Virus record (IMG/VR): IMGVR_UViG_3300021964_000594
Coordinates: 1 to 22,381 of that record
Direction: 5' to 3' (one strand)
DNA from: a virus
Length of the DNA: 22,381 nt
The translations under genes and the position numbers were made by a program. Within the stretch, counting starts at the first letter, position 1, and every line of letters begins with the position of its first letter. The notes under the pieces are model-generated. The model made no database searches. It was not told where the DNA came from and was given only the letters and a program-made list of their open reading frames with translations. This document shows positions 1-22,381 of this stretch, piece by piece.

Positions 1-3000
1 CGCCATTGTTTGCAATGCCAAATACTGTGGTACTGCCATCACTTGTAAATGTTTGTGACAACACGGTGCCAGCTAGACTGGTGTATTCTACTTTAACCAA
101 ATAGTTTTCAGGTGCTGGAGTGTCAAGATCCACTTGAATATTGTCAGCAATTGTAAATGCTGTAAACTGTTCACTGTTAACGATCAATACCAACTGATCA
201 ACCAATGAATAGTCTAGGTCTAGGAACAGTTCATCGTCAATGATGGCAGATCCTTGATAGCTTTCTTTAAGTAATTGATTGCCGCCGCCAATACCAAACA
301 CAACAACGCTTAATGCATCGCCAGTAAGAGCACCGTTATTCACAGTTACTGATTTGCCAAACCAATTAATACTGTACTGGCTTGGATCAAGAACGTATCC
401 TTGGGTTTGGTTGATAACTTGCAAGGCTACTGGGTTAGGCATAAGTGCGCTAAAGAATATGGTTTTATTGTTTTCAAACCAGAATATGCTGGTGCGCTTA
501 ATTTCAAATCCATGTCCGTTTGCCTCCCAGTCTGCCCCTGGTGTGGTTCTAACTGTGAGATTTAAACTGTCAAACATGCTGCCTGGCACAAGTTCTTGTG
601 GAGCGTGTGAACTATATGTGTCAATAAATTCTCCACCTTCAACATTTATATCTGTAGATCTTGTGCCAAGATAGGTATCAGTGAAACTGCTTTGGTAAAT
701 GGTATCAATTATTTCTTCGCTGTATGTTGGTAGACCTTCAGGACCATAATCAATGTTATCATATGGAACAGTATCAAACGCTGCAACATCATAGCCTGAG
801 TTTTGATCAAACCCAGGTCCGTCTACTTGCACACCTGGATAATCGATGCCAGTAATTAACAATGCAAGTTCTTTGCCTGGATCTTGAATATCTGGAGTGT
901 AATAACCCATGGTACGATCAATACCACTAAGTGTGCTAGCATCAACTTCAGTATAATCATCAACATCAAACTCACTACCACTAAACAACGATGTGCTATC
1001 AGCAACTTGATTTACAGAATAAACCTTGTTGTTGTAACGTACCAATGAACCTTCTTCGTAGTAGGTGTTCTTGGTCCATATTTGTATTGCTGTTGTGTAT
1101 TCATATCTATCAAATTTGATGGTTGGTTTAATGTGTCTGACTGTTTCATTTTTCAATCTTGCAACAACAATACCGCCAGTACCGTTACCACCTGTAACAG
1201 TTACAACTGGACTTGTTGTATATCCTTCACCAGCATCAATAATATCTACTCTTACTATTTGCCCTGCACTGTTTACAACTGCTTCAAGCACTGCTTGTCT
1301 TGTTGCAGTACCAGTTACAGTAAGGACTGGTGCCACTGTGTATCCTTCTCCGGCATTCACAATGTCAACACTGCCGACAGTGTACTTGTAATTGTTAAAC
1401 CACTGGCTGTAAGGCCATGTCTGCCAGATCTCAAGATCTGTATTTGCAAACGTCAACTGTGGACTTACAAACTTGTTAAGTTGATCATCATAGTACGCTG
1501 GCAAATCAAAGTCGGTGATATCACCCTTGAAATAATCTACACCATCATAGCGTAGAGCAAATTCTTTAATTTTTACATGATAAGGTTTTACTTCTCGAAT
1601 GTAATCAATAACAAAGTCTTGGTTATCAGCTCTGTATACATTGTATGGAAGAAGGTCACGAATCTTGTGACTTACATTAATTAGACTGGTTTTTGTTAAC
1701 CACTCAGGTGCAATCTGCTCAGACATGATGTATTCAAACATGAGAATAAGCAAGTTATTTCGGTATATGGCCAAGTCATTAATGAAAATTTCTTCGTTAA
1801 GACTCTTAAGAATTTGTCTAGTTTCTGTAATTGGATTTTGATCAAATCTTTGACTATCAAATGCTTGCAAGTCAAAACCAAATCCGCTTGAACCGTAATT
1901 ATAAACACTTACGTCGATAGCAACAGTTCCATCCTCAAGCACTTTACGCACATAGGAACCGTCTACCAACTGGTAAATTTCAAACTTGTCTGCACTGTTG
2001 CTCAATACCTTAACACTGTCACCTGGATCGATACCTGTTAGTAGTTCAATGTCGCTGTATTTTTCAACTTCTGCTACTGGTCTGACACTGGTATCATATC
2101 CTGTTGCAACCCAGTTGACATAACTCCAAAATTGTGTAGTATCATAGTTTTGTACTCTGGTTAATAGTAAAGAGTAGTCACTTTGCACTGTGTAGATTGT
2201 CCACAAGCCTTCGTTATTCTCGTCTGTAAGCACCAAATATTTGTATCCAACGCCATCGACTTCTGGATCTTGATATAGCAATTCACTGTAATTGTTTAGA
2301 CTCTTGTTCCATTCACCGCTGGCACTGCTTGGGGTAGCTTCTTGGCTCAGCAATAATGGGTACGAGCGTATTTCAGTTATTGGAAATAGTGCAAGATAGC
2401 TGTTTGCTCTAACAATATAGTTTTGTAGAGCTTCAAATCTATCAACTACCACACTTTGTCTTGGTCTGAATCCTGTGCCATATCTTTCAGCTGGGCTTAG
2501 TCTAGGATCTGGTACAATATTTCCAACACTGTTAGCACCGCATAGGCTGTCAACAAATTTTGTAAACAGTGTGGCATCTAAGAAACTATCAGCAGTTTCA
2601 CTTTGTATTAGGTCATACTCAACATGCACATTATCGTCATTCTTGACTCGGTCAAAGTCTACATGCAAAATTGTATCTTTTGCACTGAATAAGTTGTCGC
2701 AGTTGTTAAGTGCTATAGTATTTTGACTTAAAGCGGTCAGATAAGGTATACCACTGCTTAAAGGATTCTCGATATACTGTTTGATTGCATTTGTGCTTAG
2801 AGTTTTATCTGCTGATTTAACCACACTATTCAATCCTGTGACCCAGTAGTAATATTTGGTTATAAAGTTTCCAGTACTGGTTAGTTCGCTTCCTACAACA
2901 TAGCTTGTAGTACTATATACTGTACCTGGACCGGCATATTGTGCTGGTGGCACTGTGCTTTCAGTCCACTGATAAACATCAATACTGCTTCCTGGGAATA

Positions 3001-6000
3001 CCTGTCCCCAACGTTTTGCTCTATACTCAATGGTGTCTTGTCTATAATCAATAAATCTTACGTTACTAACGTTCCACCATATCTCTCCAACATGGGAATC
3101 ATTCCACGTGGTTCCAACGTTGTTGTAGCCGCCATTGTTGTAGCTTGCTGGATCAAAACTGGTAATGTAATCAATATTTTGTCTTGCACTGCCTAGTATT
3201 TTTCCTTGTAAAGGATCTATTGTGTCCAGATATAATTGTGTTTCACTAGTGACTCTGTCATATGTGAACACGCTGTTAATTTGCGAAACATCAACTGCTT
3301 GTATTTCAGAATATTTTTTATACCATGTGCTGGTGGTTGGGCTCGAAAATTCCGCAACACGTCCAAAGTTTCCGCTACTGTCTCCAAGATCACTGCCCGG
3401 AGAACCAATCAATAATCTGTTGTTTAGCAAACTTACACTGCTACCAAATTGATCAAAACTTACTAAACTATCATCGTAAATCTGACTGCCAAATACAAAC
3501 TTACCTGGATTTGTTACTGTGCTGTTTGCACTTTCAAGGAAATCGTAAGTATAAACTACACCACTGGTGTTGACAATATCTGTGAATGTGGTACTGGAAC
3601 CATCAAGCACAGTGTCTCCACCATCAAGAGTCATTGGTTTTGCAGCGTTTCCTTTTGGACTTCCAACAACAAGGGTAGTGCTGGTTGTCTGATCAATTTG
3701 TAGTGCTGATCCAAATTCTGAATATCGTACTGGGTACGGACTTGTAATAGTTTGTACATAAGACAGTGGTTCAAATCCTAAACTGTTATATGCACTTCCA
3801 ATACCTGGCAACACTTGAAGTTTAATAAATCTATCTGCAGGTTCGGCTGTAACAATACTCAATGTGATCAATTCATTTGCAACACTTGCAGTAACATTTG
3901 GTATATCAGCATCGTTAATGGCTTTGGTATACGCTTCTGGCCAGTTACTTAATTCCCAATAATCTGTGTCGGTTAAACTTGTGCCAGTTGGAACTGCCTG
4001 AATACTATGATAGATTATATTGCTACCATTGTTTACATACACATCATTTAGGTACGCTGTGCTTGAACTGTGTAGAGGTAGGTCAGGAACATAAACTTGA
4101 TAGTTGTTTATTCTGATACTGTTGCCCGAATATAGTGTACTTGGATTGGTGCTTGTTATTGTGCCATACAATCTGTTTTGATTTGCAAAACGTTCAACTT
4201 GTCCGGCTTCAACTAATGTACCGCTGTGTTTTGGAGATCCAATGTACAAACTGCAATTAGTTGGACATTGACTCAATGAAGCTCCAAATCTAGCGCCTGT
4301 TGCCGAGTCATTGCTGTCTAACGTGCTCATAAGTTTAAAATTGTTGTTTTCAATTTCAATGATATCGCCAAGATTCAATGTCACTGAACTTAAAATAGTA
4401 ACTGTTGATCCATTCACTGTGTATTGTCCATTGTTATTAAATGGACTAGGTGTAAGGAAAGTGTCATTTAACTTAACAGTGAGATTTCCATTTACACCAG
4501 ACGCCACTGTGTATGTTCGTGTTGTGGTATTTTCGACCTGAAATCTTTCTACACTTCTGTCGTAAACATAAACTCTACCAGTGTTGTTACGGTAACCAGG
4601 ATCTCCAATTGCTACTTGTCTGCCGTCAGTGGTTGTATCAACGGCATAACCAAACTCTGCGTTAAGTGTATTCGAGGTATTTGCTTCTGTGAAGTATGCA
4701 TTGTAAACAGTTGGTTGTGCCTCTCTATAAACTTGAAAAGCTGGTTCAATTATATTTGCAATTCGCGAAATAAGAGTTGGATCAGTTAGTGTGCCAGCAC
4801 CATATTGTGCAAAATGTAATGCATCAATTGCACTAATATCGCCATCGTACGTTACATCACTATATGCGTACCCAGTATCTGGATTAATATCTGTAAAGAA
4901 TGCTGGTACTGAACCACCTGCGGCTGCTGTTAACACAGCGTCCGTGAAAGCAGTCCAGTCTACTGCATAAGCAGGTATTGTAATTGTATCTATTAATTTC
5001 CAATATGTGTCACTGTTGACGGTAACTGTTGAATTACTGACACCGTTACGCAAAAACTGTATCTCTTTTGCTGTGCTGTCATCTATATATATGTAATCAT
5101 AGTTAGGTCTTTGTAGGACTCCATTTACTCTTACACTGAAACTGTAGATATCAGTGACTGTATACAAATCTTCAATCAAAAAGTCAATTTGCGGGGTTGA
5201 ACCAACTGTCCAGCTTTTGTTTGTTTTACGACTGATTCTGATTTCGTCGCCAAGATTTGGTGCAGTAACAAATTGCACTTCAGGAGCATCATAAGTCCAG
5301 TCAACTCCTAATACTTGCAAAATGTTGTTTCTTGTTACAAGTATTTGATCAGCGCCGATGCCACCAGCAGCACTATCATCGTCTACAATTATAGTATCGC
5401 TGATATCATAATCTGTGGTAGTGCCGTTTCCAACAGCTTCAACGACTTGATTTTGCACGTCAACTCTGTTGTATGCTCTGACAACATTATTTCCTGGTCC
5501 GCCAATGTACATCCATCTATCATCTTGACTGATTGCAACACTTGACCCAAATTGTTCCCAAAGATAGATATAGATGCTCGCACCTGGATCAACTCTTGTG
5601 AAGAACTCAATAGTATCCGAGCCAACAAGTTGCCAATCAGTTCCTGCTGTCTTAACTTCATCGTCTACTAACACTGCAATTGCTGTTTCGTCGGTGGTTG
5701 TAAATGCACTGCTAAAGTCGTATAATTGGGTACTGTCTTGACTTCCTAATGTTTTGAAAAGGTTACGTGGTTCAGGTGTAAGTATCTGACTGCTTGAATA
5801 TGCACCATTCGCACTATCTCGCTTGATTAACAAACTGTAGCCTTGTTTGCCTCCACTTTGTGGACTTCCTGCGACACTGAACTGTTGTCCACTGCTTGCC
5901 AATGATGAACCAAGGCTAACTGTATTTCTGGCACCAAGCACTTGTACTGTTGTATTCACATATTCGTTGTTGGAATTGGTGTTAAATGTGTAAACAGCTC

Positions 6001-9000
6001 CGCCTGCAACTGCAAGCTCAACTACACTGCCTGCTCCAGGTGCAACTGTAAAAACAACGTCTCTTGTACCAGCCGCGTCGTCAATACTGATAGTGTAATT
6101 GGTGTTCAATGTTTGGGTAACGCTGTTTAATCGCACAATTAATGTTGTGGTATCACTTACTGGCAAGCCAAGGAAACTAAACGTATCTGCTAAACCGTCT
6201 CCAACATAGAGTAAATTTTCTTCGTAACCTGGCGAGCTTATTAATGCACCCTGACGCAGTAAACCTTGACTCACTGCTGTGCCAAACTCTGCATTTTCAA
6301 TTGCATCAGCTTCAATGTTTCCGTTTATCGTAAACGCCGAGTCACGTTTTTCGTAAGCACCCCAGGTACCGTCGCCAGCATTGTTGACCCAAGCTCTAGT
6401 CAATGGTGTTAGTGTGTTTACTGTTGGCAAACTTGCAATATCACTTGGTTGTGCTACTCTTACGCTGCTTAAAACAAATGCATTACCAACACCAGTTAAA
6501 GAGGTTTCGTCTCCACTTAGGCTTAGATTAATAGTGACTGCCTTAAGTCCTGTAATTGAGGTTGGTTTATAGGCTCCGTCGACTTCATCGTCAAAGCCTT
6601 TGATCATAAAGATACTGCTCAATCCTAGATTGTGATTGTTTCTAAATGTAAGAGTACAAGTGCCATTTAGGTTATCTTGTACTTGCTCTAAAACTGTTCC
6701 AAGATCGTTTGTACGGTAGACATCCCAGTTATAACTGTTGACTTTTGCAATCCAAATTGTTGTTCCAACTCTAACTGTTTCCACTTGATTGATTATATCA
6801 GTAAGATCATCAATGCTGAACACTTTGATATCAACATCATCCCAATTCACATAACCTGCGTTTGGCAAATCAGTGTCTGGTTTATCTGTTGTTAATGCAG
6901 GGAACACATTAACGTCTGTGATTTTGTAACTTTGTTTGTACAAAGCATCCAGTGTTAAACTTTGATTAGCAGTGCTGGTTTGCTGAGTGTTTATAAGCTG
7001 AATAGTTGTTGGGTTATCGGTAAGCAAACTTTCATCAGTTTGTATTTCAATAAAAGCTCGGCTTGCTGTAGCACCGTAACTGGCTTTAAGTAACGCCCAG
7101 TTTTCGATGATATTGTAATCAGCAACTTCCTTGTCTAAACGTGCTTGTGTGAAGATTTCAGCAGCGCCTACTGTGCCTTTGGTTTTTAAGAATTGCTTGT
7201 ACAACTGAACTTGTGATACGTCGTCAAGGTTAAGACTTTGCATGTATTCACGTGGGCGGAATCCAATGAGTCCAGCACCTAGCAAGTCAGCATCTGTTTC
7301 AAGGTTGGCTATGTTTGTATCGTAGTAATTTGAAATAAGTCCAGCTTTGGTTGCTGCATTTGGTAACAAACCTTTGCTAATCAAATCATAATCACTCTTG
7401 ATCCAATCATTGAAATCAAAAGAGCCAGTTGGACTTAATAACTTTCCTGCACTCCAGTATTCATCTTTGTAGAGTACAATTTCGCCTTTGCTGTACTGGC
7501 GATTTGGTTTCCATTCTTGAATATTGTCTTGGTTAAGAATGAATCCTTGTGCATCTAGTGTGCCGTTCCACTCATAGGTTACAGATCCATTCACTAAAAG
7601 TCGCAGTTGTCGCGCACCAGTGCTAGGATTATAAATCAAATCATTGAACAAACTGGTGTTATCAAAAACAATGATGTGTTCGTATGCAGTGGTTTTTGCA
7701 CCAAGATAGTTGATAACATCATTGTTTGTTGTGCTTAACTTAAAGGTGTTTTCGATTCGACTTACTAAAAGTTTATCTTTGCCAATAGCTTTTCTGTCTT
7801 GACTAAAGATTGGTTCTGAACGTGTGCCTGAAACATCTTCAACAATTTGATTTGGTGTGTTGATCGTAATTTGGTTTGCGCCTGGATTAAGATTAATCAG
7901 GCTTCCGCTGCCCCAACCTTGATTGCTCCACAACACAGCTTCTTGTGCCATTTGCAACCAATCAAGTACCACTCCGTTCTCAATATTGTCAAATACCATG
8001 TTTGATCTTTCAAGATACACACCGTAGCTTACTAAAAAGTCTGCTAGTCCATTGAGTGTTGTAAATTCATAACCATACGGTATTCTTGTAATGTTGTCAC
8101 TGTGATCTTTGTTTACCCGGATTGTGGTATTTCCAACAACCAATGTGTCATAGCTGCCATTAATAACACTGTTGTAAATTGTGAAATAAGGATTGTTTAT
8201 GCTATAACCACTTACAATGTATCCACTATCAGTTCTTTGTACAATTACACTGCTATAGGCAATTTGATTAAGAGTTGGGTTTTTGTAAAGTTTTAACTGA
8301 AAACTTTCATCTGGAATAAGCAAACTGGTGTTTAAACTGTCAGGTGTGCTTTTTTCAGTAAAAATTTTCAAATACTTTTTATCACTGTACGCACCCATAC
8401 GGTAAGCAAGTCTGACATCAAGATTGTCAAGTCTTGTCATTATTTCGTTTGCACTGTCTAATCCTGAAATCTTGTTGTAATCAACAATCCAGTTTAGGTA
8501 ACTGTTTTTGCTGGTGCCTGTGCCATAAACCACTAGATTTTCTGGTTGTAGTCTAAATCTTTCATTGTATAACCATTGATCTAAACCAGTGTCATAGCGG
8601 TATAAATCAATGTCAGCATTGAGTGCAAAGTATTTTGCTGGTTGTGTTAGAGCAAGCAATTTTTGTAGAGCAAACTGATAGCTACTGCTACGTCTCCATG
8701 CTGTTTCTGTTGGGCCTCCATCGCCAAAGACCCAACTCTTTTGGAAACTTCCGCTATCAAATGTGCCAACCACGCTTTGTAACGGAGCAATTAAATTACC
8801 CAGGCTGTCTACTGGAATAATGCTTAATAAATCAGGACGAGCATACTGACTAAGTGTGCGTGGATTGGCAGGATCAGCAACATAGCCTTCTGATAAATCT
8901 TCCCACAATACAAGGTTTCCGCTGGTATACGGTGAACTACCGTAACGTAGATCCCAATAGTCAGGCTTCTCAGTGAAGCCTAGCATTTCCCATGGACGTA

Positions 9001-12000
9001 AATGTGGTACATCTGTATCATAGAGATAGTTGTAAATGCCTCTCCATGCGCCTAATAGCAAGGTGTTGTCAAGTTTGTTTTGGCTTCTACTGTAGTTGTA
9101 GGTAAATTCATTGCTGGCAATATAATCTTGATCTCTAAAAGCAACACGGTTTTGACCTACCCAAGACAAGAAACTTTCGCTGAGTATGTTGTTGATTTCA
9201 GCAAGGCTGTAGTCGGTATCACGGAATTGTCCTGGCATAACGTCAGTTATTGGCAAAGGAGGATTGTAGCGATTTAAAACTTTAACGTTGTTGTAAACAC
9301 GTCTTTCAAATTCTATTAGAAGATCGTCTCGGTCATCGCCATATGCAATTGTTTGAGATCCATCATGTCCAATGATAACGTCTTGCGGCGTAATGTAACT
9401 GTTGTCTGTAACTTTTTCTGGCTCCCACACTGGAGCTAGTCCTAGTTTGCTCGGAGTATTAGGAATATAATTTCCTAAAGTGCTTTCGTATTCACGAATG
9501 ACCAGCTTGTCGCCAACACTTAATGTGGCGGCAACTGTAATTCTTGGTCCGTCTGTTGCTACAGTATAATCATGACCGTCGCCAATCAACAGCACATCAT
9601 TCAAGTATACCAATATGCCTTGATAATTTGCTTTGGTAAAGTCGTATGATCTCAAAGTTGAAAACACTGTGCCTGATATAGCCGTGATTGTGTAACTTGT
9701 TTCGTCGTATGTCTCCCCACTGGGAATCATATCACTGTAATAGAAAGGCGAGTTGATGTTTTTGCCTACATTAATAAATTGTAAGATATCATCTAAAATT
9801 TTTGCTGTAGTGCCACTCCATGCTTTTGTGCTGTAGGTATTGATCAGCAATGCTTTAAAATTCTCGTAACTTCTTCTACTGTATTCGAGACTGTTAAAGA
9901 ATTGATACTCAGGATCGTTTATAAAGTTTGCACACATAGTCAGAGGCGAGCTGTGTTGAATAATCTGATCGCCATATGGTACAACATCACCAAGATCTCG
10001 GATATTGTTTGCGCCGTGAATACTACCATCAAAATTTGACAGGTTTGAGCAAATGGTTGTATAATGGTTTCGTGCCGTACCAAGTGTAACACTGGTTACT
10101 TCGCTGTTAAGAGCATTGTTTTCAAGATTAAGTGGAACGCTGTAATAGCCAGCATCGCTCACTGACTTGCTGACCACACTTACCTCAACCAAACTTCCAA
10201 CGGTTGGTGCAGTGGTAAATGTTATCACAGTAACATTACGAGTGGTATCTGTGCTGTAGGTATAATTTTCAGGTAGATAGAATTCACCGTCAACATAAAC
10301 CTTAACAGGCACATCTACACTGCTGTCAACCAACACATCCAGCAGTAGATTGTTTCCAGTGTATTCAAAACTTAGTATTTGTCTGCTTTCTCTGTCAGTG
10401 TAGGACTTCTGCCAGCCTGTTTGTTTTTGGAATGTGGTTCTATCAGAGTAAGTTCTAGCAAAACCATTTTTAATGTCTAAGGTGGTGCTTACGTTGTTGC
10501 TTACATAGTTGAAAGAATCAATGTAAAAATAGTTTTCAAAAACAATATCGCCAATGTTGTTGACACTCAAATATTTGATTGGAAATCCAAGTTCAGAATC
10601 TGCAACACCACTGCCAATTCCGTAGCCAAACAATTTGCTACCAGTAAAACTGGTGCCCACATAATATGTACTATCGCTAAAGCTGTTACCGTTGCTATCA
10701 AAAACATCAAACAATGGTGCTTGATTAGTTGCAGTTTTGTCTTGTGCATCTACCCAACTGGTGCCATTATAGTAGTAACTTTTGCCCTGTCCGGTTAATC
10801 CTTTTGTAACTACCACTGTGCTATTAGAAGGAACACCTGCCGTGGTAATGTCTGCTGGAGTAAGATTAATTACTGGTTCACTGCTGTCATCAAACTTCAC
10901 AAACTCAACAGTGTAGATTTTGTTTCTAACTTTGTCGTCGCGATCATCGGCAAATATAACTTTTGTTCCATCAACAAAAGGATACCCATCAACACTATAA
11001 CCAATTGTTCCATTAATATCACTGAATGCATCAGTGGCATTGAAGTCAATTACATCAACTTTGCCCACACTGCTTGTACCAAAGTTGAACAATTTAAGTC
11101 CAGATAAAAATTCTAAAATTGGACGTTTTGCTCTACTGTCATTGTCAAGAACCACAGCATTATTGTTATAATCTGCGGTAGCATTGATTACATCAATGTG
11201 AAACCATCTGTTGCTTCTACTCCAGGCATTCTCATCTGGGCTAGCACGGTTAATAGTAATATAGTCTCTAACCAATGGTGCATTTAGTGTGTCATCAAAG
11301 TTACCTTCATCATATGGTGTACTGTCATATGGTGTACTCGAACTTTTGGTAAATGGTTCAGGTGTAATTAGATTATCTACTGCAATAAGTTCGATCAATT
11401 TGCCTACGCCTTCCACATAATACTCATTACCACTGTAACTAGATGGGATAGTAGGGCCGTCGAATCTTACTTTGAGTCCGTTTGTAAATGTGACACCATT
11501 AGGACTGGTGTAGGTGCTTCTGGTCAAAATATCATTGACATTAAGATCAGGAGAATCTTCACTGTCTAATAATTGAATAGTGCCAAACTTGCTTGGATCA
11601 GTACCGTCCACATAATACAATACATCAAGATTTGCAGTTATAAGCGGAACTTGTGCAAACCATTGTTGGTTTGTGCGATAAAAATAAGCGCCACCATATG
11701 TTTTACCGTAGTTAATAATTGCTTTTGTCTCAAGGGTAAAGGCACGTTCTTGTGTTAATTGTATTGTTGGATCACTGCCTGCCGTGTAGCTGATTCTCCA
11801 CACACTGTATTTGGTATCTGGATTAGTGATAATAGAACTATCGGGTCTGACCCAACCTCCATCTTCGCCGCCAATTTGCGTTAAGAAGATAATTGTTCGA
11901 TTTTCAATATCTGTTATGCCGTCTATACCTGTAGGGTATTCATTGAAGAAATCTTCTACAGTGACATTGTTAATTTGGTTGTACTTCAGATTGGTAGCAA

Positions 12001-12763
12001 AATCAACGTTGCCGGCACTAGCCATATCATTATAAAAATCTTGTGCTCTTTTATCAGGCACATTGAATTGTATAAGTCCAACGTCGTCGCCATTGTTGGT
12101 TACTCCTAGTACATCTCTTGTGCTTTGATTACTAAAGCTAAATGTTCCATCTCCGGTGGCGGCTTGTATCCAAAACGGATGGCCAAGTTGATTGACACTA
12201 AACTGATAGTTGCCTTTTCGTAGCAAGGTAATAGTTGGAAGATTGCCATTGTATCCGGCAATGCGATATCCACTGGTTGTTCGTGTGATATCAAAAGTTT
12301 TAATAAGTGCTGTTTCAGTAGCACTAACGCTTACACTATCTGGTCCTTCTGGTAACCAATAATATTGACCATAGTTGATCCATTTGTCATAGTCTACCAA
12401 TGGATCAAAAGAATAATATTGACTACTCCACAAACGATCATGTCGGTTGACCAAGCTATCGTTTACTGCTAAACTATCTACAATACCTGGATATGTTAAA
12501 ACATCGTTAACATTGTTGGTATTGGGTTGTAAAAAAGTTACTGCTGGCTCAAGTTGATAGTTGTTTCTGTTTTCGGTGCTTTCAGGAATGTAAACATCAT
12601 CGCTTGTAACACCAACACCAATTTTCCTACCAATATAACCTTGAGTTCGCTTTAACTTTGGTTCTTGTATCAGTTGGTCAAGGGTACTGCCAAGGAATTG
12701 TTTATTTGTGTCGGTTTGAAAGATTTCAGGTAAGAAATCTACACTTCTTATTCTTGATGCCAT
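1..12763 (-). CDS. Giant baseplate/tail structural protein, gp7/gp8 position (3' end outside window)
   Basis: An uninterrupted frame starts with ATG at 12763-12761 and is still open at base 2, giving 4254 visible codons. Translations checked near 12.7, 9.0, 6.0, 3.0 and 0.02 kb stay in the same frame. The protein starts MASRIRSVDFLPEIFQT. I recall this N-terminus, and internal stretches such as RPWEMLGF and EVKPYHVKIKEF, from large virion proteins of marine T4-like phages. Layout: residues 1-790 are a conserved N-terminal region; about 790-1100 hold two fibre-type beta modules; about 1100-2150 are a conserved region ending with a CBM-like module near 1751; 2155-3150 hold seven FG-GAP-like repeats with inserted modules; about 3150-3800 are again conserved; then come two GEGYT repeats, another CBM-like module near 3896 and further beta modules. 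The start overlaps the gp6 stop (TAATG), with GGTGGA eight bases upstream. T4 has gp7 after gp6, so a role in the outer wedge is inferred from position only. Confidence 0.9.
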   Translation of the reverse strand, partial: MASRIRSVDFLPEIFQTDTNKQFLGSTLDQLIQEPKLKRTQGYIGRKIGVGVTSDDVYIPESTENRNNYQLEPAVTFLQPNTNNVNDVLTYPGIVDSLAVNDSLVNRHDRLWSSQYYSFDPLVDYDKWINYGQYYWLPEGPDSVSVSATETALIKTFDITRTTSGYRIAGYNGNLPTITLLRKGNYQFSVNQLGHPFWIQAATGDGTFSFSNQSTRDVLGVTNNGDDVGLIQFNVPDKRAQDFYNDMASAGNVDFATNLKYNQINNVTVEDFFNEYPTGIDGITDIENRTIIFLTQIGGEDGGWVRPDSSIITNPDTKYSVWRISYTAGSDPTIQLTQERAFTLETKAIINYGKTYGGAYFYRTNQQWFAQVPLITANLDVLYYVDGTDPSKFGTIQLLDSEDSPDLNVNDILTRSTYTSPNGVTFTNGLKVRFDGPTIPSSYSGNEYYVEGVGKLIELIAVDNLITPEPFTKSSSTPYDSTPYDEGNFDDTLNAPLVRDYITINRASPDENAWSRSNRWFHIDVINATADYNNNAVVLDNDSRAKRPILEFLSGLKLFNFGTSSVGKVDVIDFNATDAFSDINGTIGYSVDGYPFVDGTKVIFADDRDDKVRNKIYTVEFVKFDDSSEPVINLTPADITTAGVPSNSTVVVTKGLTGQGKSYYYNGTSWVDAQDKTATNQAPLFDVFDSNGNSFSDSTYYVGTSFTGSKLFGYGIGSGVADSELGFPIKYLSVNNIGDIVFENYFYIDSFNYVSNNVSTTLDIKNGFARTYSDRTTFQKQTGWQKSYTDRESRQILSFEYTGNNLLLDVLVDSSVDVPVKVYVDGEFYLPENYTYSTDTTRNVTVITFTTAPTVGSLVEVSVVSKSVSDAGYYSVPLNLENNALNSEVTSVTLGTARNHYTTICSNLSNFDGSIHGANNIRDLGDVVPYGDQIIQHSSPLTMCANFINDPEYQFFNSLEYSRRSYENFKALLINTYSTKAWSGTTAKILDDILQFINVGKNINSPFYYSDMIPSGETYDETSYTITAISGTVFSTLRSYDFTKANYQGILVYLNDVLLIGDGHDYTVATDGPRITVAATLSVGDKLVIREYESTLGNYIPNTPSKLGLAPVWEPEKVTDNSYITPQDVIIGHDGSQTIAYGDDRDDLLIEFERRVYNNVKVLNRYNPPLPITDVMPGQFRDTDYSLAEINNILSESFLSWVGQNRVAFRDQDYIASNEFTYNYSRSQNKLDNTLLLGAWRGIYNYLYDTDVPHLRPWEMLGFTEKPDYWDLRYGSSPYTSGNLVLWEDLSEGYVADPANPRTLSQYARPDLLSIIPVDSLGNLIAPLQSVVGTFDSGSFQKSWVFGDGGPTETAWRRSSSYQFALQKLLALTQPAKYFALNADIDLYRYDTGLDQWLYNERFRLQPENLVVYGTGTSKNSYLNWIVDYNKISGLDSANEIMTRLDNLDVRLAYRMGAYSDKKYLKIFTEKSTPDSLNTSLLIPDESFQLKLYKNPTLNQIAYSSVIVQRTDSGYIVSGYSINNPYFTIYNSVINGSYDTLVVGNTTIRVNKDHSDNITRIPYGYEFTTLNGLADFLVSYGVYLERSNMVFDNIENGVVLDWLQMAQEAVLWSNQGWGSGSLINLNPGANQITINTPNQIVEDVSGTRSEPIFSQDRKAIGKDKLLVSRIENTFKLSTTNNDVINYLGAKTTAYEHIIVFDNTSLFNDLIYNPSTGARQLRLLVNGSVTYEWNGTLDAQGFILNQDNIQEWKPNRQYSKGEIVLYKDEYWSAGKLLSPTGSFDFNDWIKSDYDLISKGLLPNAATKAGLISNYYDTNIANLETDADLLGAGLIGFRPREYMQSLNLDDVSQVQLYKQFLKTKGTVGAAEIFTQARLDKEVADYNIIENWALLKASYGATASRAFIEIQTDESLLTDNPTTIQLINTQQTSTANQSLTLDALYKQSYKITDVNVFPALTTDKPDTDLPNAGYVNWDDVDIKVFSIDDLTDIINQVETVRVGTTIWIAKVNSYNWDVYRTNDLGTVLEQVQDNLNGTCTLTFRNNHNLGLSSIFMIKGFDDEVDGAYKPTSITGLKAVTINLSLSGDETSLTGVGNAFVLSSVRVAQPSDIASLPTVNTLTPLTRAWVNNAGDGTWGAYEKRDSAFTINGNIEADAIENAEFGTAVSQGLLRQGALISSPGYEENLLYVGDGLADTFSFLGLPVSDTTTLIVRLNSVTQTLNTNYTISIDDAAGTRDVVFTVAPGAGSVVELAVAGGAVYTFNTNSNNEYVNTTVQVLGARNTVSLGSSLASSGQQFSVAGSPQSGGKQGYSLLIKRDSANGAYSSSQILTPEPRNLFKTLGSQDSTQLYDFSSAFTTTDETAIAVLVDDEVKTAGTDWQLVGSDTIEFFTRVDPGASIYIYLWEQFGSSVAISQDDRWMYIGGPGNNVVRAYNRVDVQNQVVEAVGNGTTTDYDISDTIIVDDDSAAGGIGADQILVTRNNILQVLGVDWTYDAPEVQFVTAPNLGDEIRISRKTNKSWTVGSTPQIDFLIEDLYTVTDIYSFSVRVNGVLQRPNYDYIYIDDSTAKEIQFLRNGVSNSTVTVNSDTYWKLIDTITIPAYAVDWTAFTDAVLTAAAGGSVPAFFTDINPDTGYAYSDVTYDGDISAIDALHFAQYGAGTLTDPTLISRIANIIEPAFQVYREAQPTVYNAYFTEANTSNTLNAEFGYAVDTTTDGRQVAIGDPGYRNNTGRVYVYDRSVERFQVENTTTRTYTVASGVNGNLTVKLNDTFLTPSPFNNNGQYTVNGSTVTILSSVTLNLGDIIEIENNNFKLMSTLDSNDSATGARFGASLSQCPTNCSLYIGSPKHSGTLVEAGQVERFANQNRLYGTITSTNPSTLYSGNSIRINNYQVYVPDLPLHSSSTAYLNDVYVNNGSNIIYHSIQAVPTGTSLTDTDYWELSNWPEAYTKAINDADIPNVTASVANELITLSIVTAEPADRFIKLQVLPGIGSAYNSLGFEPLSYVQTITSPYPVRYSEFGSALQIDQTTSTTLVVGSPKGNAAKPMTLDGGDTVLDGSSTTFTDIVNTSGVVYTYDFLESANSTVTNPGKFVFGSQIYDDSLVSFDQFGSSVSLLNNRLLIGSPGSDLGDSSGNFGRVAEFSSPTTSTWYKKYSEIQAVDVSQINSVFTYDRVTSETQLYLDTIDPLQGKILGSARQNIDYITSFDPASYNNGGYNNVGTTWNDSHVGEIWWNVSNVRFIDYRQDTIEYRAKRWGQVFPGSSIDVYQWTESTVPPAQYAGPGTVYSTTSYVVGSELTSTGNFITKYYYWVTGLNSVVKSADKTLSTNAIKQYIENPLSSGIPYLTALSQNTIALNNCDNLFSAKDTILHVDFDRVKNDDNVHVEYDLIQSETADSFLDATLFTKFVDSLCGANSVGNIVPDPRLSPAERYGTGFRPRQSVVVDRFEALQNYIVRANSYLALFPITEIRSYPLLLSQEATPSSASGEWNKSLNNYSELLYQDPEVDGVGYKYLVLTDENNEGLWTIYTVQSDYSLLLTRVQNYDTTQFWSYVNWVATGYDTSVRPVAEVEKYSDIELLTGIDPGDSVKVLSNSADKFEIYQLVDGSYVRKVLEDGTVAIDVSVYNYGSSGFGFDLQAFDSQRFDQNPITETRQILKSLNEEIFINDLAIYRNNLLILMFEYIMSEQIAPEWLTKTSLINVSHKIRDLLPYNVYRADNQDFVIDYIREVKPYHVKIKEFALRYDGVDYFKGDITDFDLPAYYDDQLNKFVSPQLTFANTDLEIWQTWPYSQWFNNYKYTVGSVDIVNAGEGYTVAPVLTVTGTATRQAVLEAVVNSAGQIVRVDIIDAGEGYTTSPVVTVTGGNGTGGIVVARLKNETVRHIKPTIKFDRYEYTTAIQIWTKNTYYEEGSLVRYNNKVYSVNQVADSTSLFSGSEFDVDDYTEVDASTLSGIDRTMGYYTPDIQDPGKELALLITGIDYPGVQVDGPGFDQNSGYDVAAFDTVPYDNIDYGPEGLPTYSEEIIDTIYQSSFTDTYLGTRSTDINVEGGEFIDTYSSHAPQELVPGSMFDSLNLTVRTTPGADWEANGHGFEIKRTSIFWFENNKTIFFSALMPNPVALQVINQTQGYVLDPSQYSINWFGKSVTVNNGALTGDALSVVVFGIGGGNQLLKESYQGSAIIDDELFLDLDYSLVDQLVLIVNSEQFTAFTIADNIQVDLDTPAPENYLVKVEYTSLAGTVLSQTFTSDGSTTVFGIANNG
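975..1078 (-). other. CBM5/12-like aromatic module 3 in the giant protein
   Basis: From Trp 3896 the protein reads W-T-K-N-T-Y-Y-E-E-G-S-L-V-R-Y-N-N-K-V-Y, followed by S-V and an acidic loop. The W....YY..GS.V.Y.N.VY spacing matches module 1 closely. It lies about 100 residues after the first GEGYT repeat. Glycan binding is inferred from the pattern only. Confidence 0.45.
1190..1369 (-). repeat. Two GEGYT repeats in the giant protein
   Basis: Two 20-residue units at 1310-1369 and 1190-1249 are identical at 15 of 20 positions. Both read V-D-I, then A-G-E-G-Y-T, then P-V-x-T-V-T-G, and they are separated by a 20-residue linker. G-x-G-Y-x-x-x-P-x-V repeats of this kind occur in phage tail and fibre proteins, where they form short beta structures. 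This pair lies near the C-terminal end of the visible giant protein, just before the CBM-like segment at 975-1078. Confidence 0.8.
3950..4060 (-). other. CBM5/12-like aromatic module 2, between propeller blades 5 and 6
   Basis: Residues 2904-2936 read Y-L-N-D-V-Y-V, then I-I-Y-H-S-I, then V-P-x-G-T-S-L-T-D-T-D-Y-W. This is the Y..ND.V ... Y.s....tg..l.dt.yW form of the same small module. It lies within the larger spacing between blades 5 and 6, consistent with insertion in a propeller loop. The N-terminal Trp of the other two copies is absent here. Confidence 0.4.
4330..6215 (-). repeat. Fibre-type beta modules inserted between propeller blades
   Basis: Five diverged copies of a module of about 65-75 residues lie at about 5990-6215, 5560-5760, 5215-5450, 5020-5215 and 4330-4545. 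The shared pattern is a G-D/N-G-x-x-T-x-[FY] start, a V-x-[VL]-[ND]-x-x-x-Q-style strand (for example VRVNGVLQ, VLVDDEVK, VKLNDTFL), a [DN]-[YW]-[TQ] segment, then I-x-[FV] ... P-x-x-G-[DAS]-x-[IV]-x-[IVL]. This resembles short beta-sandwich modules repeated in phage tail fibres. Related copies lie outside the propeller near 10175-10390, 9485-9715, 280-455 and 85-265. The copies are too diverged for DNA repeats to be visible; the relation is at protein level. Confidence 0.55.
7395..7513 (-). other. CBM5/12-like aromatic module 1 in the giant protein
   Basis: From Trp 1751 the protein reads W-x-x-x-x-x-Y-x-x-G-E-I-V-L-Y-K-D-E-Y-W-S-A, followed by a short loop and F-x-x-x-D-W. The spacing W...Y..G..V.Y.....Y.A is that of the small carbohydrate-binding fold CBM5/12, also found in many phage structural proteins. 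The pattern is visible in the sequence; sugar binding is inferred. Confidence 0.45.
11310..11338 (-). repeat. Short 15-bp tandem duplication in the giant gene
   Basis: The 14-base string TCATATGGTGTACT (plus strand) occurs at 11310-11323 and again at 11325-11338, a period of 15 bases. It encodes TPYDS followed by TPYDE, so the frame is kept. It looks like a recent slippage duplication. Confidence 0.85.
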
Positions 12764-15700
12764 TAACTATTTCCACCAGTGGATATTCTTAACTGACTGT
12801 TAGTGAGTGCAGTAATTACTTCTACATCGTTAACTGTTGCAGCGTTTACAAATATTTCGTTAGCTCTTGCTCGAATTTCATATAGATCGCCAAAACTCTT
12901 TAGCGGGTCTGTTGGCACAATTACAACACTGCTGATTATATCGCCAAGCTCTTCATGCAGATATGCACTTAGCTCACTGAAGAAGAATGTTTCACCAAAG
13001 TCCCAAACGTCTATAGTAAAGTAATCATTTACAGAAGCAATTACACTACTTTTAATTTCACTAATGCTTACAGTTGTGTTAGGATTTTTAATTACTTTAA
13101 AAATAGCTCGTAGCTCAGGTTCAGCTTTGGCTCCAAAAAGTGGCTTAAATGTTACACTGTTCATTATCACGTTGTCACTGATCATTTTATAATTGTTAAT
13201 GTTGCTATATGTAGTTGTTAATTGTTCAATAGTAGGCTGATCAGGCTCGGCTACTGTGCCTGTGCTATCCTTAATATAGTTTTGGTAATCAGTATAATAC
13301 GAGCTAGTTACAACGTAAACATCAATGATGTTTGTTGTGCCAGGATCAATACGTCTGCTGAACGGACTGTTGTGTCTATATTGGAATTTAAAATCTTGTC
13401 TACCAATCTTAACTTGCCAATCGGTTACTTCGGCGATTGTTCTTATGCCTGTAACACCAACTGTAAGTTGATAAAATTTTTCATCTGTGGTTGCATAAAA
13501 CACTTGACCATCTGCGTATTCTGATTTGTTTAATTCAATACTTTCAAGAGTGCCGAAACGTGTCACCACTGTGCCACTTGCTACTGGCAAAAATCTTTCT
13601 AAATTATCAAAGTCTGCTGTTTGTTGAAAAAATACCAGTTTGTTAGTCGGATTAGTGGTAGGTGCAACCAAGGTTTGGAAATAATCTGGATCATCAGCAA
13701 CACCATCGTTGTCGCTGTCTCTAAAACTTACTCGCACTCTAAAATCATCAACAAACCCGTCTGTTTCTGCTGGTTGGCCAATGATATCTAATACAGTATC
13801 ATAATTCACTGGCGAACTAGTGTCAGGAAGATTATTAATCTTTAATACATTTATAAAATCGTTAATTGTTGTTCCAGTTTTTGGATCATAAATTCTATCA
13901 TTGCTATCAAAGAAGAATCTTGTCTCTAGCACACTGCCCCAGAATCTTTGCAAACTGCGTGAACTTACAGTGTAGGTTACACCGTCAGTGATAAATTTAA
14001 CAAGCCAACTGTTATCCAACCCTTGTCCGGTTGTGTCTTGTGCATAGTTAAGACTAAATGTATTAGCAGTGTCAAGATTGGATGCTGTGATTACATACCA
14101 ACTTTGCGATTCTGTGTCGTAGCCAAGTCCAAAGTTTCTGTACAGTTCAACATTGGTCTTGATATTTTGTTCGGTTGCAACACTAAGATCAGTAACAAAT
14201 TTAGGAATTACTTCTGTTGGAATGGCGCCAGTTGGTACAAAATCATTGAGTGTGATAGGACCAGTACCATCTGCTAGATTGCCCTGTCCAAAATTGGTAC
14301 CATCTAGTGTAAGACTTGCCACTGACGCCCAAAGACTGACTCTATCATTCGGCAAGGACGGCGTACCAGTTTGTAATCTATTTGCACTGTCAAAGTATTG
14401 TCCAGTAGGCGCAACAAATTTAACCAATGCACCAACAATAATATATTTTTTGTTGTCATTTACAGACGGACCAACCGGTGCTGGTTCATCGTTACTGGTG
14501 TATGTAAAGTAACCAGTTGCTTCATTGGTTTGTGATGTGCTTTGTTGCCATTCAAGCGCAAGATTACTCAATTGTGGTCGTGGATAATTGTTGTAATAGA
14601 ATTCAATCATTCCACGATTGCTGATTGCTGGCTCCACCTGGTTGATAATAACATTATTGATATCGTTGATATCAGTAAATGTAAAATTAAAACTAGGAAT
14701 AGCATCAGTTTCGTATAGCAATCCGTCGTCTGCAAAGATATTTGTACTTGAGTATTTTCCAGTAACATCCACAAGATCAAGATAACGGCTTGTGCCAATG
14801 CTACTGCGGTTAACTGCTTTGCTTTTAATAACTGTGCTGAACAGTGTGTAAGGGAAGTTGTTGTAGTCTTCGCCGTTTACCATTCTGTTCTGAGTATAGA
14901 ACCTTGCTGGTGCTCTGTTCTTTATGTCCGCAATGTTTTCTCTGTTGTTTGCGTTGCTCACTGGCTCGGCAAGATTACAGGTAAAAGTTAGAACTTCTTG
15001 TCTACCGTTGCGACTGATATAATTCAAACTGATTTGAATATTTTGCATGTCCTCAGGATTGATCACATACCGCAAGCCGTTGCTCGAACGTACATAACTC
15101 CTAAAGTTACCAACTGGTATAGTACTAAACACACCGTCGCCAAATATTAAATCAATTTGGTCGTTTGTTCTACTACCTACACTGAAAAACTTTCTTGCAT
15201 CTGGTGCAAGTTGTTCTGCGGCTGCCGCATAGATATTTTCTACTTTGGTCCACTGTTCTTCAATTGCGTTATTGCTGTCTAATTTGTACAGCCAAACATC
15301 ATCATTGTTAATGCCTTCAATGTTTACATTAACAACGCGATTGCTTACACGTTCGCTTAGTGTAAAATCGTTGTTTTGTAAACTGCCTTGTTTGAAATAC
15401 AAAAAGTATCCAGTGTTGGCACTTGCAAATCCAAGATTGTCATTTCTGTAAAGAATATTAAAATCACTGTCTGGACGTGGTGCTGGTTCGTAAATTGTAT
15501 TTGAATTTTCTGTGGAAACATTCACTGCTTCAAAACTCATGCTTGTGCCATTCACTGTTTGAGTAAAAGGCACGACTGGTAAAAATCCTGTTGCAAGATT
15601 TACTGTGTATGTGTCAGTGGCAATACCGTTGATGTCAGCTGAGCTTCCTGGCTTACCGTAACGTTGTGTGCTTACCATTGCAGCATTTACAACAGTATTA

Positions 15701-16167
15701 AACTGCTCAAGCCAATTTGCATTGGTTACATCATTCCAACTTATTTCTACACTGGATAAATTAAAACCGTTAAAGTCAGTGATATTTTCTGTTGTACGAA
15801 CGCTGGTTACTTTCAAATATCCTTGTGCTGCAAGATTACGTTTTGGAGTATAACCAACTAGATTTGATAGTCTTACTACACTGTCTCTACGTTCTGCTGT
15901 GTCTAAAAAGTTTTCACGAGTGTTTAAGTCGTTACGGTAGCTGAGGCTTTGGCCCATAAAGGCCATTACATCCAACAGTGCAATGAATTCTGAACTTTCT
16001 GTGTAGTCGTTGAAAGTTTCTGGGTAATACAGTTTAAGATAGTCAATAAAACTTTTTCGCAGAGTTTCAAAATCATAACTCTGAAAATCAGCTTCGCGAT
16101 AGGTTTGGTAAATCCTTCGCCAATCCTCTACGCCAAAAATTGCAGTTTGTCTTGTTGTTCTTGCCAT
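12763..16167 (-). CDS. 6: Baseplate wedge protein gp6-like, enlarged
   Basis: This 1134-residue protein starts MARTTRQTAIFGVEDWRRIY and continues with a region containing YPETFNDYTESSEFIALLD and RRDSVVRLSNLVGYTPKRN (about residues 48-112), a hallmark of T4-type gp6. The C-terminal 144 residues (991-1134) look like the Baseplate_J-type domain of the family, which packs gp6 dimers into the ring joining the wedges. T4 gp6 is about 660 residues, so roughly 470 extra residues lie in the middle and are mostly beta-rich. Within this extra part, residues 817-828 form a D-x-D-x-D-G calcium-loop pattern. The ATG at 16167 follows a purine-rich GGAAGGTG. The stop TAA shares its last base with the start of the giant gene, suggesting coupled translation. 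Confidence 0.93.
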   Translation of the reverse strand: MARTTRQTAIFGVEDWRRIYQTYREADFQSYDFETLRKSFIDYLKLYYPETFNDYTESSEFIALLDVMAFMGQSLSYRNDLNTRENFLDTAERRDSVVRLSNLVGYTPKRNLAAQGYLKVTSVRTTENITDFNGFNLSSVEISWNDVTNANWLEQFNTVVNAAMVSTQRYGKPGSSADINGIATDTYTVNLATGFLPVVPFTQTVNGTSMSFEAVNVSTENSNTIYEPAPRPDSDFNILYRNDNLGFASANTGYFLYFKQGSLQNNDFTLSERVSNRVVNVNIEGINNDDVWLYKLDSNNAIEEQWTKVENIYAAAAEQLAPDARKFFSVGSRTNDQIDLIFGDGVFSTIPVGNFRSYVRSSNGLRYVINPEDMQNIQISLNYISRNGRQEVLTFTCNLAEPVSNANNRENIADIKNRAPARFYTQNRMVNGEDYNNFPYTLFSTVIKSKAVNRSSIGTSRYLDLVDVTGKYSSTNIFADDGLLYETDAIPSFNFTFTDINDINNVIINQVEPAISNRGMIEFYYNNYPRPQLSNLALEWQQSTSQTNEATGYFTYTSNDEPAPVGPSVNDNKKYIIVGALVKFVAPTGQYFDSANRLQTGTPSLPNDRVSLWASVASLTLDGTNFGQGNLADGTGPITLNDFVPTGAIPTEVIPKFVTDLSVATEQNIKTNVELYRNFGLGYDTESQSWYVITASNLDTANTFSLNYAQDTTGQGLDNSWLVKFITDGVTYTVSSRSLQRFWGSVLETRFFFDSNDRIYDPKTGTTINDFINVLKINNLPDTSSPVNYDTVLDIIGQPAETDGFVDDFRVRVSFRDSDNDGVADDPDYFQTLVAPTTNPTNKLVFFQQTADFDNLERFLPVASGTVVTRFGTLESIELNKSEYADGQVFYATTDEKFYQLTVGVTGIRTIAEVTDWQVKIGRQDFKFQYRHNSPFSRRIDPGTTNIIDVYVVTSSYYTDYQNYIKDSTGTVAEPDQPTIEQLTTTYSNINNYKMISDNVIMNSVTFKPLFGAKAEPELRAIFKVIKNPNTTVSISEIKSSVIASVNDYFTIDVWDFGETFFFSELSAYLHEELGDIISSVVIVPTDPLKSFGDLYEIRARANEIFVNAATVNDVEVITALTNSQLRISTGGNS
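13684..13719 (-). other. Predicted Ca2+-binding loop in gp6
   Basis: Residues 817-828 of the gp6-like protein read DSDNDGVADDPD. This matches D-x-D-x-D-G-x-x-D-x-x-D, the loop of thrombospondin type 3, dockerin and EF-hand-like calcium sites, with every acidic position filled. Calcium binding is inferred. Confidence 0.6.
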
Positions 16168-16195: not shown

Positions 16196-16214
16196 ATAAA
16201 AAACTACGCAGTTT
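16196..16214 (-). terminator. Weak hairpin with T-run after gp25
   Basis: Overlapping the gp25 stop, the minus strand reads AAACT-GCGT-AGTTT followed by TTTATT. This is a 5-bp, AT-rich stem with a 4-base loop running into Ts. The stem is weak for an intrinsic terminator. At most it would attenuate transcription between gp25 and gp6. Confidence 0.25.
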
Positions 16215-16587
16215 ATACAAGCCTAGCAACTCTTGTTTGTTCGTCAAAAAACAATAACAATCTTTCGGCACTAACACCTTGTACAGTGCTTACTGCAACT
16301 TCCAAGAGTATTCCATTGTTTTGTGGATACATATCAACCTTGTCTAAACGCAGTCGAGGATCCATGTTTACTCCACGTTGTATTTCTTCCTGTATAAGCT
16401 CGGCAGTTTCTTCAGTCTGAGGTTCGAACAACAATTGCCATATCCGTGTACCATAGCTTGGACGTCCAGCAATTTCGCCCTGTTTGATGTTGAGAAAGTT
16501 TAAGAAATCTCTTTTGATTAATTCAAAATCAGTGAGCACAAAGTTTTTTTGTGCGCCAATTGTGTTGTATCCAATAAATGTTGCCAT
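16213..16587 (-). CDS. 25: Baseplate wedge / sheath initiator protein gp25-like
   Basis: This 124-residue protein is close in size to T4 gp25 (132 residues) and belongs to the GPW/gp25 family shared with TssE of type VI secretion. The family core is visible: Y-G-T-R-I-W-Q-L-L-F-E-P at residues 45-56, an acidic helix with ETAELIQEEI, then DPRLRL at 76-81, which is the family's EPR-type motif with Asp in place of Glu. In T4 the protein joins the inner wedge and starts sheath polymerisation. ATG at 16587 is preceded by AAGGAG eleven bases upstream, overlapping the stop of the spike gene. It lies between gp5 and gp6. Confidence 0.94.
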   Translation of the reverse strand: MATFIGYNTIGAQKNFVLTDFELIKRDFLNFLNIKQGEIAGRPSYGTRIWQLLFEPQTEETAELIQEEIQRGVNMDPRLRLDKVDMYPQNNGILLEVAVSTVQGVSAERLLLFFDEQTRVARLV

Positions 16588-21910: not shown

Positions 21911-22210
21911 TTATCCACCTAGTACAGTTTCAAGTGTGCTTTTCTTTGGCAGATAAATTGTTGTACCTGTGGTAAAATCTCCTAGTGGATCTTGAATTTG
22001 ATTTGGATTGCGTTGAGCAAACACCCACCAGTAGCCAGGATCACCGTAAAGGTCAAAAGCAAGAAGATCTGGTCGTAAATTGTAAGTTTGCGTAATTGTA
22101 AAACTTTGATCGTCCACGAGCTTGGGTATTCTTCTATTGTTTAGAACTCCTAGTACGCCGTTTCTAATTGATGTGGTATAATAAGGACTGCTCGGTGCAT
22201 ACTCAGCCAT
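21911..22210 (-). CDS. 53: Baseplate wedge protein gp53-like (LysM-like)
   Basis: This protein has 99 residues when started at ATG 22210. The core RPDLLAFDLYGDPGYWWVFA, followed by R-N-P and D-P-L-G-D-F-T-T-G-T-T-I-Y-L-P, is the conserved LysM-like fold of the gp53 family. In T4, gp53 completes the wedge and helps wedges join around the hub. A TTG two codons upstream (22216) is in frame, but the strong AAGGAGG is only about 3 bases from it and 9 bases from the ATG, so ATG is preferred. The ATG overlaps the stop of the upstream gene (TAATG). T4 gp53 is longer (about 196 residues), so this is a compact form. Confidence 0.88.
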   Translation of the reverse strand: MAEYAPSSPYYTTSIRNGVLGVLNNRRIPKLVDDQSFTITQTYNLRPDLLAFDLYGDPGYWWVFAQRNPNQIQDPLGDFTTGTTIYLPKKSTLETVLGG

Positions 22211-22381
22211 TACCAATATCCTCCTTTAAGCAATGTTCCATTTGCATAGTCTTTGAGACTAAACTGTTGGCTAACCTGTTGTCTACTCACAATTGGTAAT
22301 AGATCAAGAGTTATAGTCATTTTGGTCGGCACATAAGTTGCATCACCCGAAATCTCAATATTAGTCGGTGGTGGGAAATTT
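22210..22381 (-). CDS. C-terminus of a probable gp48/gp54-type tail-tube/baseplate protein (5' end outside window)
   Basis: The last 56 codons are visible: PPPTNIEISG near the start, then YVPTKMTITLDLLPIVSRQQ and the end LLKGGYW, with TAA at 22212-22210. A hydrophobic strand with P-T-K-M-x-I-T-L-x-L ... [ST]-R-Q near the end is what I recall for the C-termini of gp48-like proteins, which cap the baseplate and start the tail tube. Its place before gp53 fits. The fragment is short, so the family is tentative. The gp53 ribosome site lies within its last codons. Confidence 0.5.
   Translation of the reverse strand, partial: NFPPPTNIEISGDATYVPTKMTITLDLLPIVSRQQVSQQFSLKDYANGTLLKGGYW
22219..22226 (-). 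promoter_or_regulatory. Strong Shine-Dalgarno for gp53
   Basis: The minus strand reads AAGGAGG ending at 22220, nine bases before ATG 22210. It is the best ribosome-binding site in the window. It decides the gp53 start against the upstream TTG and lies inside the coding end of the preceding gene. Confidence 0.75.

Follow-up and report, generated by a model that had tools for sequence, protein, structure and literature searches.

The window, the entire virus fragment of 22,381 bases analyzed here, carries a block of baseplate genes on its minus strand in the order gp53, a 961-aa protein, gp5, gp25, gp6, and a giant gene; all features given below lie on that strand. A gp53-type baseplate wedge subunit (21911..22216; phrog_7145, E 8.6e-21) is followed by a virion structural protein of 961 aa (19023..21908; phrog_11190, E 1.6e-15), a gp5-type hub/spike protein of 803 aa (16603..19014; phrog_13211, E 2.6e-37), the baseplate wedge protein gp25 (16213..16587; PF04965, 40.9 bits vs 27.2), and a gp6-type baseplate wedge subunit of 1134 aa (12763..16167; phrog_10646, E 2.8e-284). 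Directly after gp6 comes the giant (2..12763; phrog_10938, E 8.8e-300), of which the window holds residues 1-4254 of 4826 before its left edge cuts the gene. The position assigned to it in the preliminary description, within the baseplate operon immediately behind gp6, is thus borne out by the genes that precede it. On a longer contig, the giant is followed by a 221-aa gene (phrog_11259, unknown), in which gp8 is not recognizable, and then by a 464-aa protein with weak matches to tail fibre and other virion families; gp8 may lie elsewhere. When scanned for Rfam families and tRNAs, the window gave no matches, nor did it in a near-identity DNA search of phage records.

Some features of the neighboring genes deserve mention in their own right. 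Both phrog_10938 and phrog_11190 are filed as "head and packaging," and their genes sit in the baseplate operon. In the gp5-type hub (16603-19014), Pfam shows no lysozyme domain, whereas the hub of RaK2, CBB, and GAP32 is annotated as a tail lysozyme. The C-terminal tails of the 803-aa and 961-aa proteins, GQPTRIYGPENLLRRYYSSL and GQITRVYGSSSDLQRYYGDL, resemble each other along 46 residues (blastp E 5e-5) and may serve as a common docking element; a motif search for tails of this type in 18 other loci found none.

The giant frame runs for 4254 codons without a stop, from 12763 to 2, and is open at its left end. At the base composition of the open reading frame, such a run would arise by chance with a probability of ~10^-129.6; the other five frames stay open for 168 codons at most. 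The codon bias of the frame is protein-like: GC content at codon positions 1, 2, and 3 is 0.468, 0.398, and 0.310, and in comparison with a 69%-identical relative (L013), the third positions differ most (0.55 vs 0.25 and 0.20). In the sequence TAATG, the gp6 stop codon and the start codon of the giant share bases, with GGTGGAAAT just upstream. A second contig, IMGVR_UViG_3300021958_000137 (L009/L015), covers the entire window with 11 mismatches in 22,381 bases and no indels (99.95% identity); of the seven substitutions within the giant gene, four are synonymous. The preliminary description had reported a stop-free frame of more than 12.7 kb, encoding at least 4254 residues, and had suggested extending it leftward. 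That extension exists on the second contig, which supplies the stop and completes a protein of 4826 aa. The frame stays open across the matched stretch in 102 of 106 family loci (97 from IMG/VR, near-duplicates among them, and 9 from isolates); in L068, L108, and L109, it changes in the middle of the homology, as from indels.

The giant matches phrog_10938, a "virion structural protein" family of 3324 positions, in four stretches (999 bits), and all members in two further sets (A3 and A4) match the same family. Its isolated members are Phosso 294 (4555 aa), Atu_ph07 gp180 (4449 aa), PA5oct gp355 (3857 aa), SCTP-2 140 (3807 aa), Vibrio 2.275.O 424 (3771 aa), GAP32_230 (3341 aa), CBB_236 (3340 aa), XaC1_312 (3332 aa), and RaK2 ORF070w (3326 aa). 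In 9/9 isolate records inspected, the giant directly follows gp6, with an unannotated gene in gp6's place in SCTP-2 and no gp25 annotated before that gene. This SCTP-2 gene (gene 141, L007:8609-17899) itself encodes ~3096 aa. Relatives of our giant's N-terminal 1000 aa are encoded by 567 stretches of IMG/VR, where RaK2 as the query returned only RaK2 itself, and a search of bacterial genomes for relatives found none. With these 567 stretches and a family label that reads just "virion structural protein," the earlier suggestion of a widespread but functionally undescribed class agrees well. The impression that parts of the protein are familiar from marine T4-like phages was correct only for modules shared with marine T4-like cyanophages; the isolated relatives are jumbo phages of the RaK2, PA5oct, and Atu_ph07 type.

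That the giant is a phage structural protein, as first proposed, is supported by the family match and by published mass spectrometry of homologs. CBB_236, which adjoins the baseplate wedge protein CBB_237, was detected in virions with 21 unique peptides at 7.72% coverage (PMC5259590). In phAPEC6 virions, gp245, with a predicted mass of 381.88 kDa, was detected with 17 peptides and is listed beside the "baseplate wedge" protein gp244 (PMC7247149); from its size and neighbor, we infer that it is a member of the phrog_10938 family. The record of PA5oct gp355 carries an ESI-MS/MS note. These data establish the presence of homologs in virions; the published tables consist of peptide counts and coverage, which do not distinguish one full-length species from fragments.

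Along the chain, a conserved core alternates with inserts. In the family alignment, nearly every member covers residues 1-100, 500-2000, and ~3150-4000, and the region beyond residue ~4150 is variable. The N-terminal segment (residues 1-100; 12464..12763), with an LPExxxT motif, is kept by almost every member, RaK2 among them (occupancy in the alignment, 0.95-0.98). The model of the conserved core at residues 480-1560 (8084..11326; pLDDT 81.9, pTM 0.73) has the same fold as an Atu_ph07 structural protein (Foldseek E 2.1e-68, TMq 0.71), while that of residues 3090-4250 (pLDDT 68.4, pTM 0.42) is usable for domains only. The latter region includes a conserved helical domain with the motif W-x-x-K-T-S ... 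V-K-P-Y-H (residues 3646-3750; 1514..1828), at which a separate gene begins in relative L080. Of the two large accessory inserts, the first (residues 150-480, 330 aa; 11324..12316) is reduced to 8-10 aa in RaK2, CBB, XaC1, and Vibrio 2.275.O; the second (residues 1991-3101, 1110 aa; 3461..6793), which contains FG-GAP repeats and beta-domain copies, is reduced to ~115 aa in RaK2. The core matched no solved structure by sequence or whole fold: searches of PDB sequences with the 4254-aa part (phmmer) and with profiles A1 and A2 gave only one chance match (E 2), and neither model matched the PDB in Foldseek at E <= 0.001. Since the inserts and the C terminus vary while the core stays constant, the protein shows the pattern expected of a scaffold with exchangeable outer parts.

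The chain also carries a beta-domain of ~75 residues, present in at least five copies. Copies at residues 790-876 (10136..10396), 1015-1099 (9467..9721), and 4082-4164 (272..520) were used to build a sequence profile, which before iteration also detected those at residues 2190-2279 (5927..6196; E 0.01) and 2727-2814 (4322..4585; E 1e-5). In L033, the profile finds at least five more copies at E < 0.01, and no match in the controls (20 shuffled sequences and 1 reversed) fell below E 0.1; an iterated profile reports ten copies at E < 0.01, values that are circular. By structure, copy 790-876 resembles T5/DT57C neck proteins and a domain of T4 gp6 (5iv5_B 171-275; Z 7.1, rmsd 2.0, 70 aligned), chain 5iv5_B being identified as gp6 from its length. 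Copy 1015-1099 resembles T7-type fibre N termini and CBA120 TSP4 187-250 (Z 8.3, rmsd 1.9, 64 aligned), and copy 4082-4164 resembles the T5/DT57C neck and the T7 gp17 N terminus (Z 7-8, 62-70 aligned). The best structural matches overall (Z 7-8.4, rmsd 1.9-3.5, 61-71 aligned) include many phage fibre and neck chains and lie near the level of a common arrangement.

Smaller modules are interspersed with these domains. Two of them are CBM5/12-like, a name we chose because CBM_5_12 (PF02839), at 24.4 bits, falls below the Pfam gathering cutoff of 26.2. The first (residues 1750-1771; 7451..7516; best member, E 2.4e-5) matches long-tail-fibre proximal subunits, and the second (residues 3896-3919; 1007..1078) matches the baseplate receptor-binding complex of phage Milano by fold (rmsd 1.4 over 45 residues, 33% identity, Z 5.1). 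FG-GAP_2 (PF14312) exceeds its gathering cutoff for the whole protein (36.5 vs 23 bits), with the best repeat at residues 3102-3131 (3371..3460). A GxGYT beta-module (residues 3793-3888; 1100..1387) is common to phage neck, hub, and sheath proteins and to the cyanophage giants described below.

In T4, the gene order is 6-7-8. The cyanophages ACG-2014e, S-PM2, S-RIM32, ACG-2014h, and Sf-FR1 have the order 25-6-giant-8, in which the giant measures 3048-3654 aa; in S-PM2 and S-RIM32, one small gene separates it from gp8. Pelagi- and cyanomyophages have been described as lacking gp7, which "appears to be substituted" by VrlC (2020, PMC7029224), and the ACG-2014h giant is labeled VrlC in one record. 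Taken together, the cyanophage order, the T4 order, and the published substitution indicate that the slot of our giant is that of gp7. The statement that the giant is several-fold larger than its positional counterpart holds for T4 gp7, which it exceeds ~4.7 times, but this is not peculiar to the window, considering the size of the cyanophage proteins in the same slot.

The sequence evidence for kinship with gp7 is weaker than that of the slot. At residues 1856-1882 (7118..7198) lies a K-G-[T/S] block, a candidate gp7-like stretch, in which G is conserved in 81/81 sequences, K in 77/81, and T or S in 81/81. Profiles of the cyanophage giants (residues 193-219) and of T4 gp7 (residues 735-758) both align here and also align to each other (E 8e-5 to 6e-4). 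When columns of residues 1560-2010 were shuffled (n=60), the cyanophage match over 27 residues scored 24.1, above the maximum of 21.8 in all 60 shuffles, but the T4 gp7 match, at 18.6, fell within the shuffle range. It is possible, though in our view somewhat less likely than not, that the giant is a true but highly diverged homolog of T4 gp7, P2 gpI, and TssG, swollen by insertions and retaining the K-G-T block as a shared signature, as the identical slot and the convergence of the two profiles on one stretch would suggest. Against this stand the shuffle result for T4 gp7 itself, the shortness of the stretch (just ~25 residues), and the finding that 0/16 members have a gpI- or TssG-like Pfam match. 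In the K-G-T region, Pfam detected CBM5/12 only and none of gpI, TssG, or gp7. A comparison of the whole profile with T4 gp7, a check proposed at the outset for residues 1-500, yielded nothing significant (best hhalign E 0.06-0.9), so that homology with gp7 could not be shown and a common gp7-like ancestor is no more than a possibility. T4 gp7 is also absent from the VIA-align matches listed, an absence that excludes nothing. At the sequence level, the significant likeness to the cyanophage giants lies in accessory modules, namely, residues 4626-4704, which match cyanophage giant residues 70-155 (E 5e-7), and the GxGYT module, which matches a single cyanophage giant sequence (E 1e-4). Bellamy gp29, annotated as "baseplate wedge initiator," was considered as a further link to gp7 and rejected: this 481-aa protein shows nothing in common with T4 gp7, and the match is confined to a module at residues 143-236. 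For this Synechococcus phage protein (L006:11107-12552), the label itself looks wrong.

Homologous to gp7 or not, the giant is likely, in our judgment, to be a very large baseplate wedge scaffold that takes the place of T4 gp7 as the partner of gp6, and it probably forms a baseplate scaffold that carries host-binding fibres. In such a model, about six copies would be present per baseplate. Residues 1-100, 500-2000, and 3150-3750, the conserved core that includes both the K-G-T and the W-K-T-S block, would bind the gp6/gp25/gp53 ring and complete the wedge, and the chain of beta-domains, FG-GAP repeats, and CBM5/12-like modules would project outward as an arm. The repeated anchor-like beta-domains of this arm could serve as sockets in which tail fibres dock, while the FG-GAP and CBM-like modules may add protein or glycan contacts, and the arm may touch the host surface. 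Fibre engagement would then be signaled by the arm to gp6 and the sheath, as by gp7 and its partners in T4.

The preliminary description had also raised the idea that wedge, periphery, and receptor-binding functions are merged in one polypeptide, which appears compatible with the domain makeup. A bolder form of this idea, which we regard as doubtful, is that a single chain of ~0.5 MDa has taken over gp7 together with part of the T4 periphery (the roles of gp8, gp9, gp10, and gp11), combining wedge core, fibre sockets, and surface-contact modules. If this were true, large jumbo phage baseplates would rest on an arm made in one piece, which grew by accreting domains and whose evolution was separate from that of the cyanophage giants.

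A different function must also be weighed. The giant could be a tail fibre or adhesin whose gene merely follows gp6, with the beta-domain chain as the fibre and the conserved part as only its anchor; the beta-domains resemble fibre N-terminal domains, the CBM5/12-like modules match long-tail-fibre proximal subunits, and FG-GAP repeats are present. We consider this unlikely. Receptor-binding parts are usually variable, yet from RaK2 to the window phage, conservation is best in the core and not at the tips. Moreover, RaK2-like members without most of the accessory modules still keep the gene, and PA5oct has separate downstream fibre and gp10-like genes.

More improbable still, the giant could be a polyprotein, translated from a single frame and cut into several structural proteins during assembly. 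This would accord with relative L080 (~38% identical), a true two-gene form in which the first protein, of 3656 aa, ends at a stop: within L080:20200-20260, the first frame closes at ~20229, and the second opens with an ATG at 20243. The downstream gene matches the giant from residue ~3646, the start of the conserved W-K-T-S helical domain. For a more distant relative that follows gp6 in Stenotrophomonas phage RAS14 (3138 aa; profile E 7.6e-34), the significant match stops in the region of residue ~3450. But a division into two genes represents modularity and not cleavage, and no sign of processing turned up in the published virion analyses consulted, whose tables consist of peptide counts and coverage only. 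The preliminary description had pointed to a relative with the region split among several genes as a challenge to the single frame. One such relative does exist, but its split at a domain boundary supports modularity rather than artifact. That the open frame itself arose from a sequencing or assembly error hiding stops can be dismissed, for although the window ends within the gene and three related contigs change frame, its codon structure, a second contig of 99.95% identity, and the 102/106 open relatives, isolate genomes included, refute it.

The wedge scaffold in the gp7 slot is our preferred reading. The family is among the longest phage proteins and is common in viromes (567 IMG/VR stretches for one segment), and databases label it only as a virion structural protein, even under head and packaging. 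The gp7 position, together with a conserved core and exchangeable modules, provides a concrete hypothesis for how jumbo phages build their baseplates and gain new fibre sockets, and cultured relatives such as PA5oct, CBB, and RaK2 make the question accessible to cryo-EM.

Compared with known systems, the giant shares with T4 gp7 (1032 aa) the place directly after gp6 and possibly a K-G-[T/I] block; T4 gp7 is ~4.7 times smaller, has no significant sequence similarity to the giant, and is followed by gp8. The predicted folds of residues 790-876, 1015-1099, and 4082-4164 appear similar to the beta-domains of the T7 gp17 N terminus, CBA120 TSP4, and T4 gp6, at 7-32% identity, but unlike these proteins, the giant repeats the domain many times per chain. 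The cyanophage VrlC giants (S-PM2p084, ACG-2014e gp085, and S-MbCM7_077) occupy the same slot after gp25-gp6, are of similar size (3048-3654 aa), and share two modules (4626-4704 and GxGYT) and perhaps the K-G-T block. They differ in a core that is unalignable, in the location of that block (near residue 195 rather than 1860), and in having gp8 as the next gene. The isolates of phrog_10938 have the family, the slot after gp6, and the core in common with our giant, which is longer (4826 aa vs 3326-4555 aa), contains two inserts missing from RaK2-like members (150-480 and 1991-3101, FG-GAP), and ends in a long, variable C terminus. Thus, the giant is a very large and understudied member of an existing family with a known gene arrangement, to which we add its complete length, a module map, the two-gene form in L080, and a comparison with the giants that fill the gp7 slot in cyanophages.
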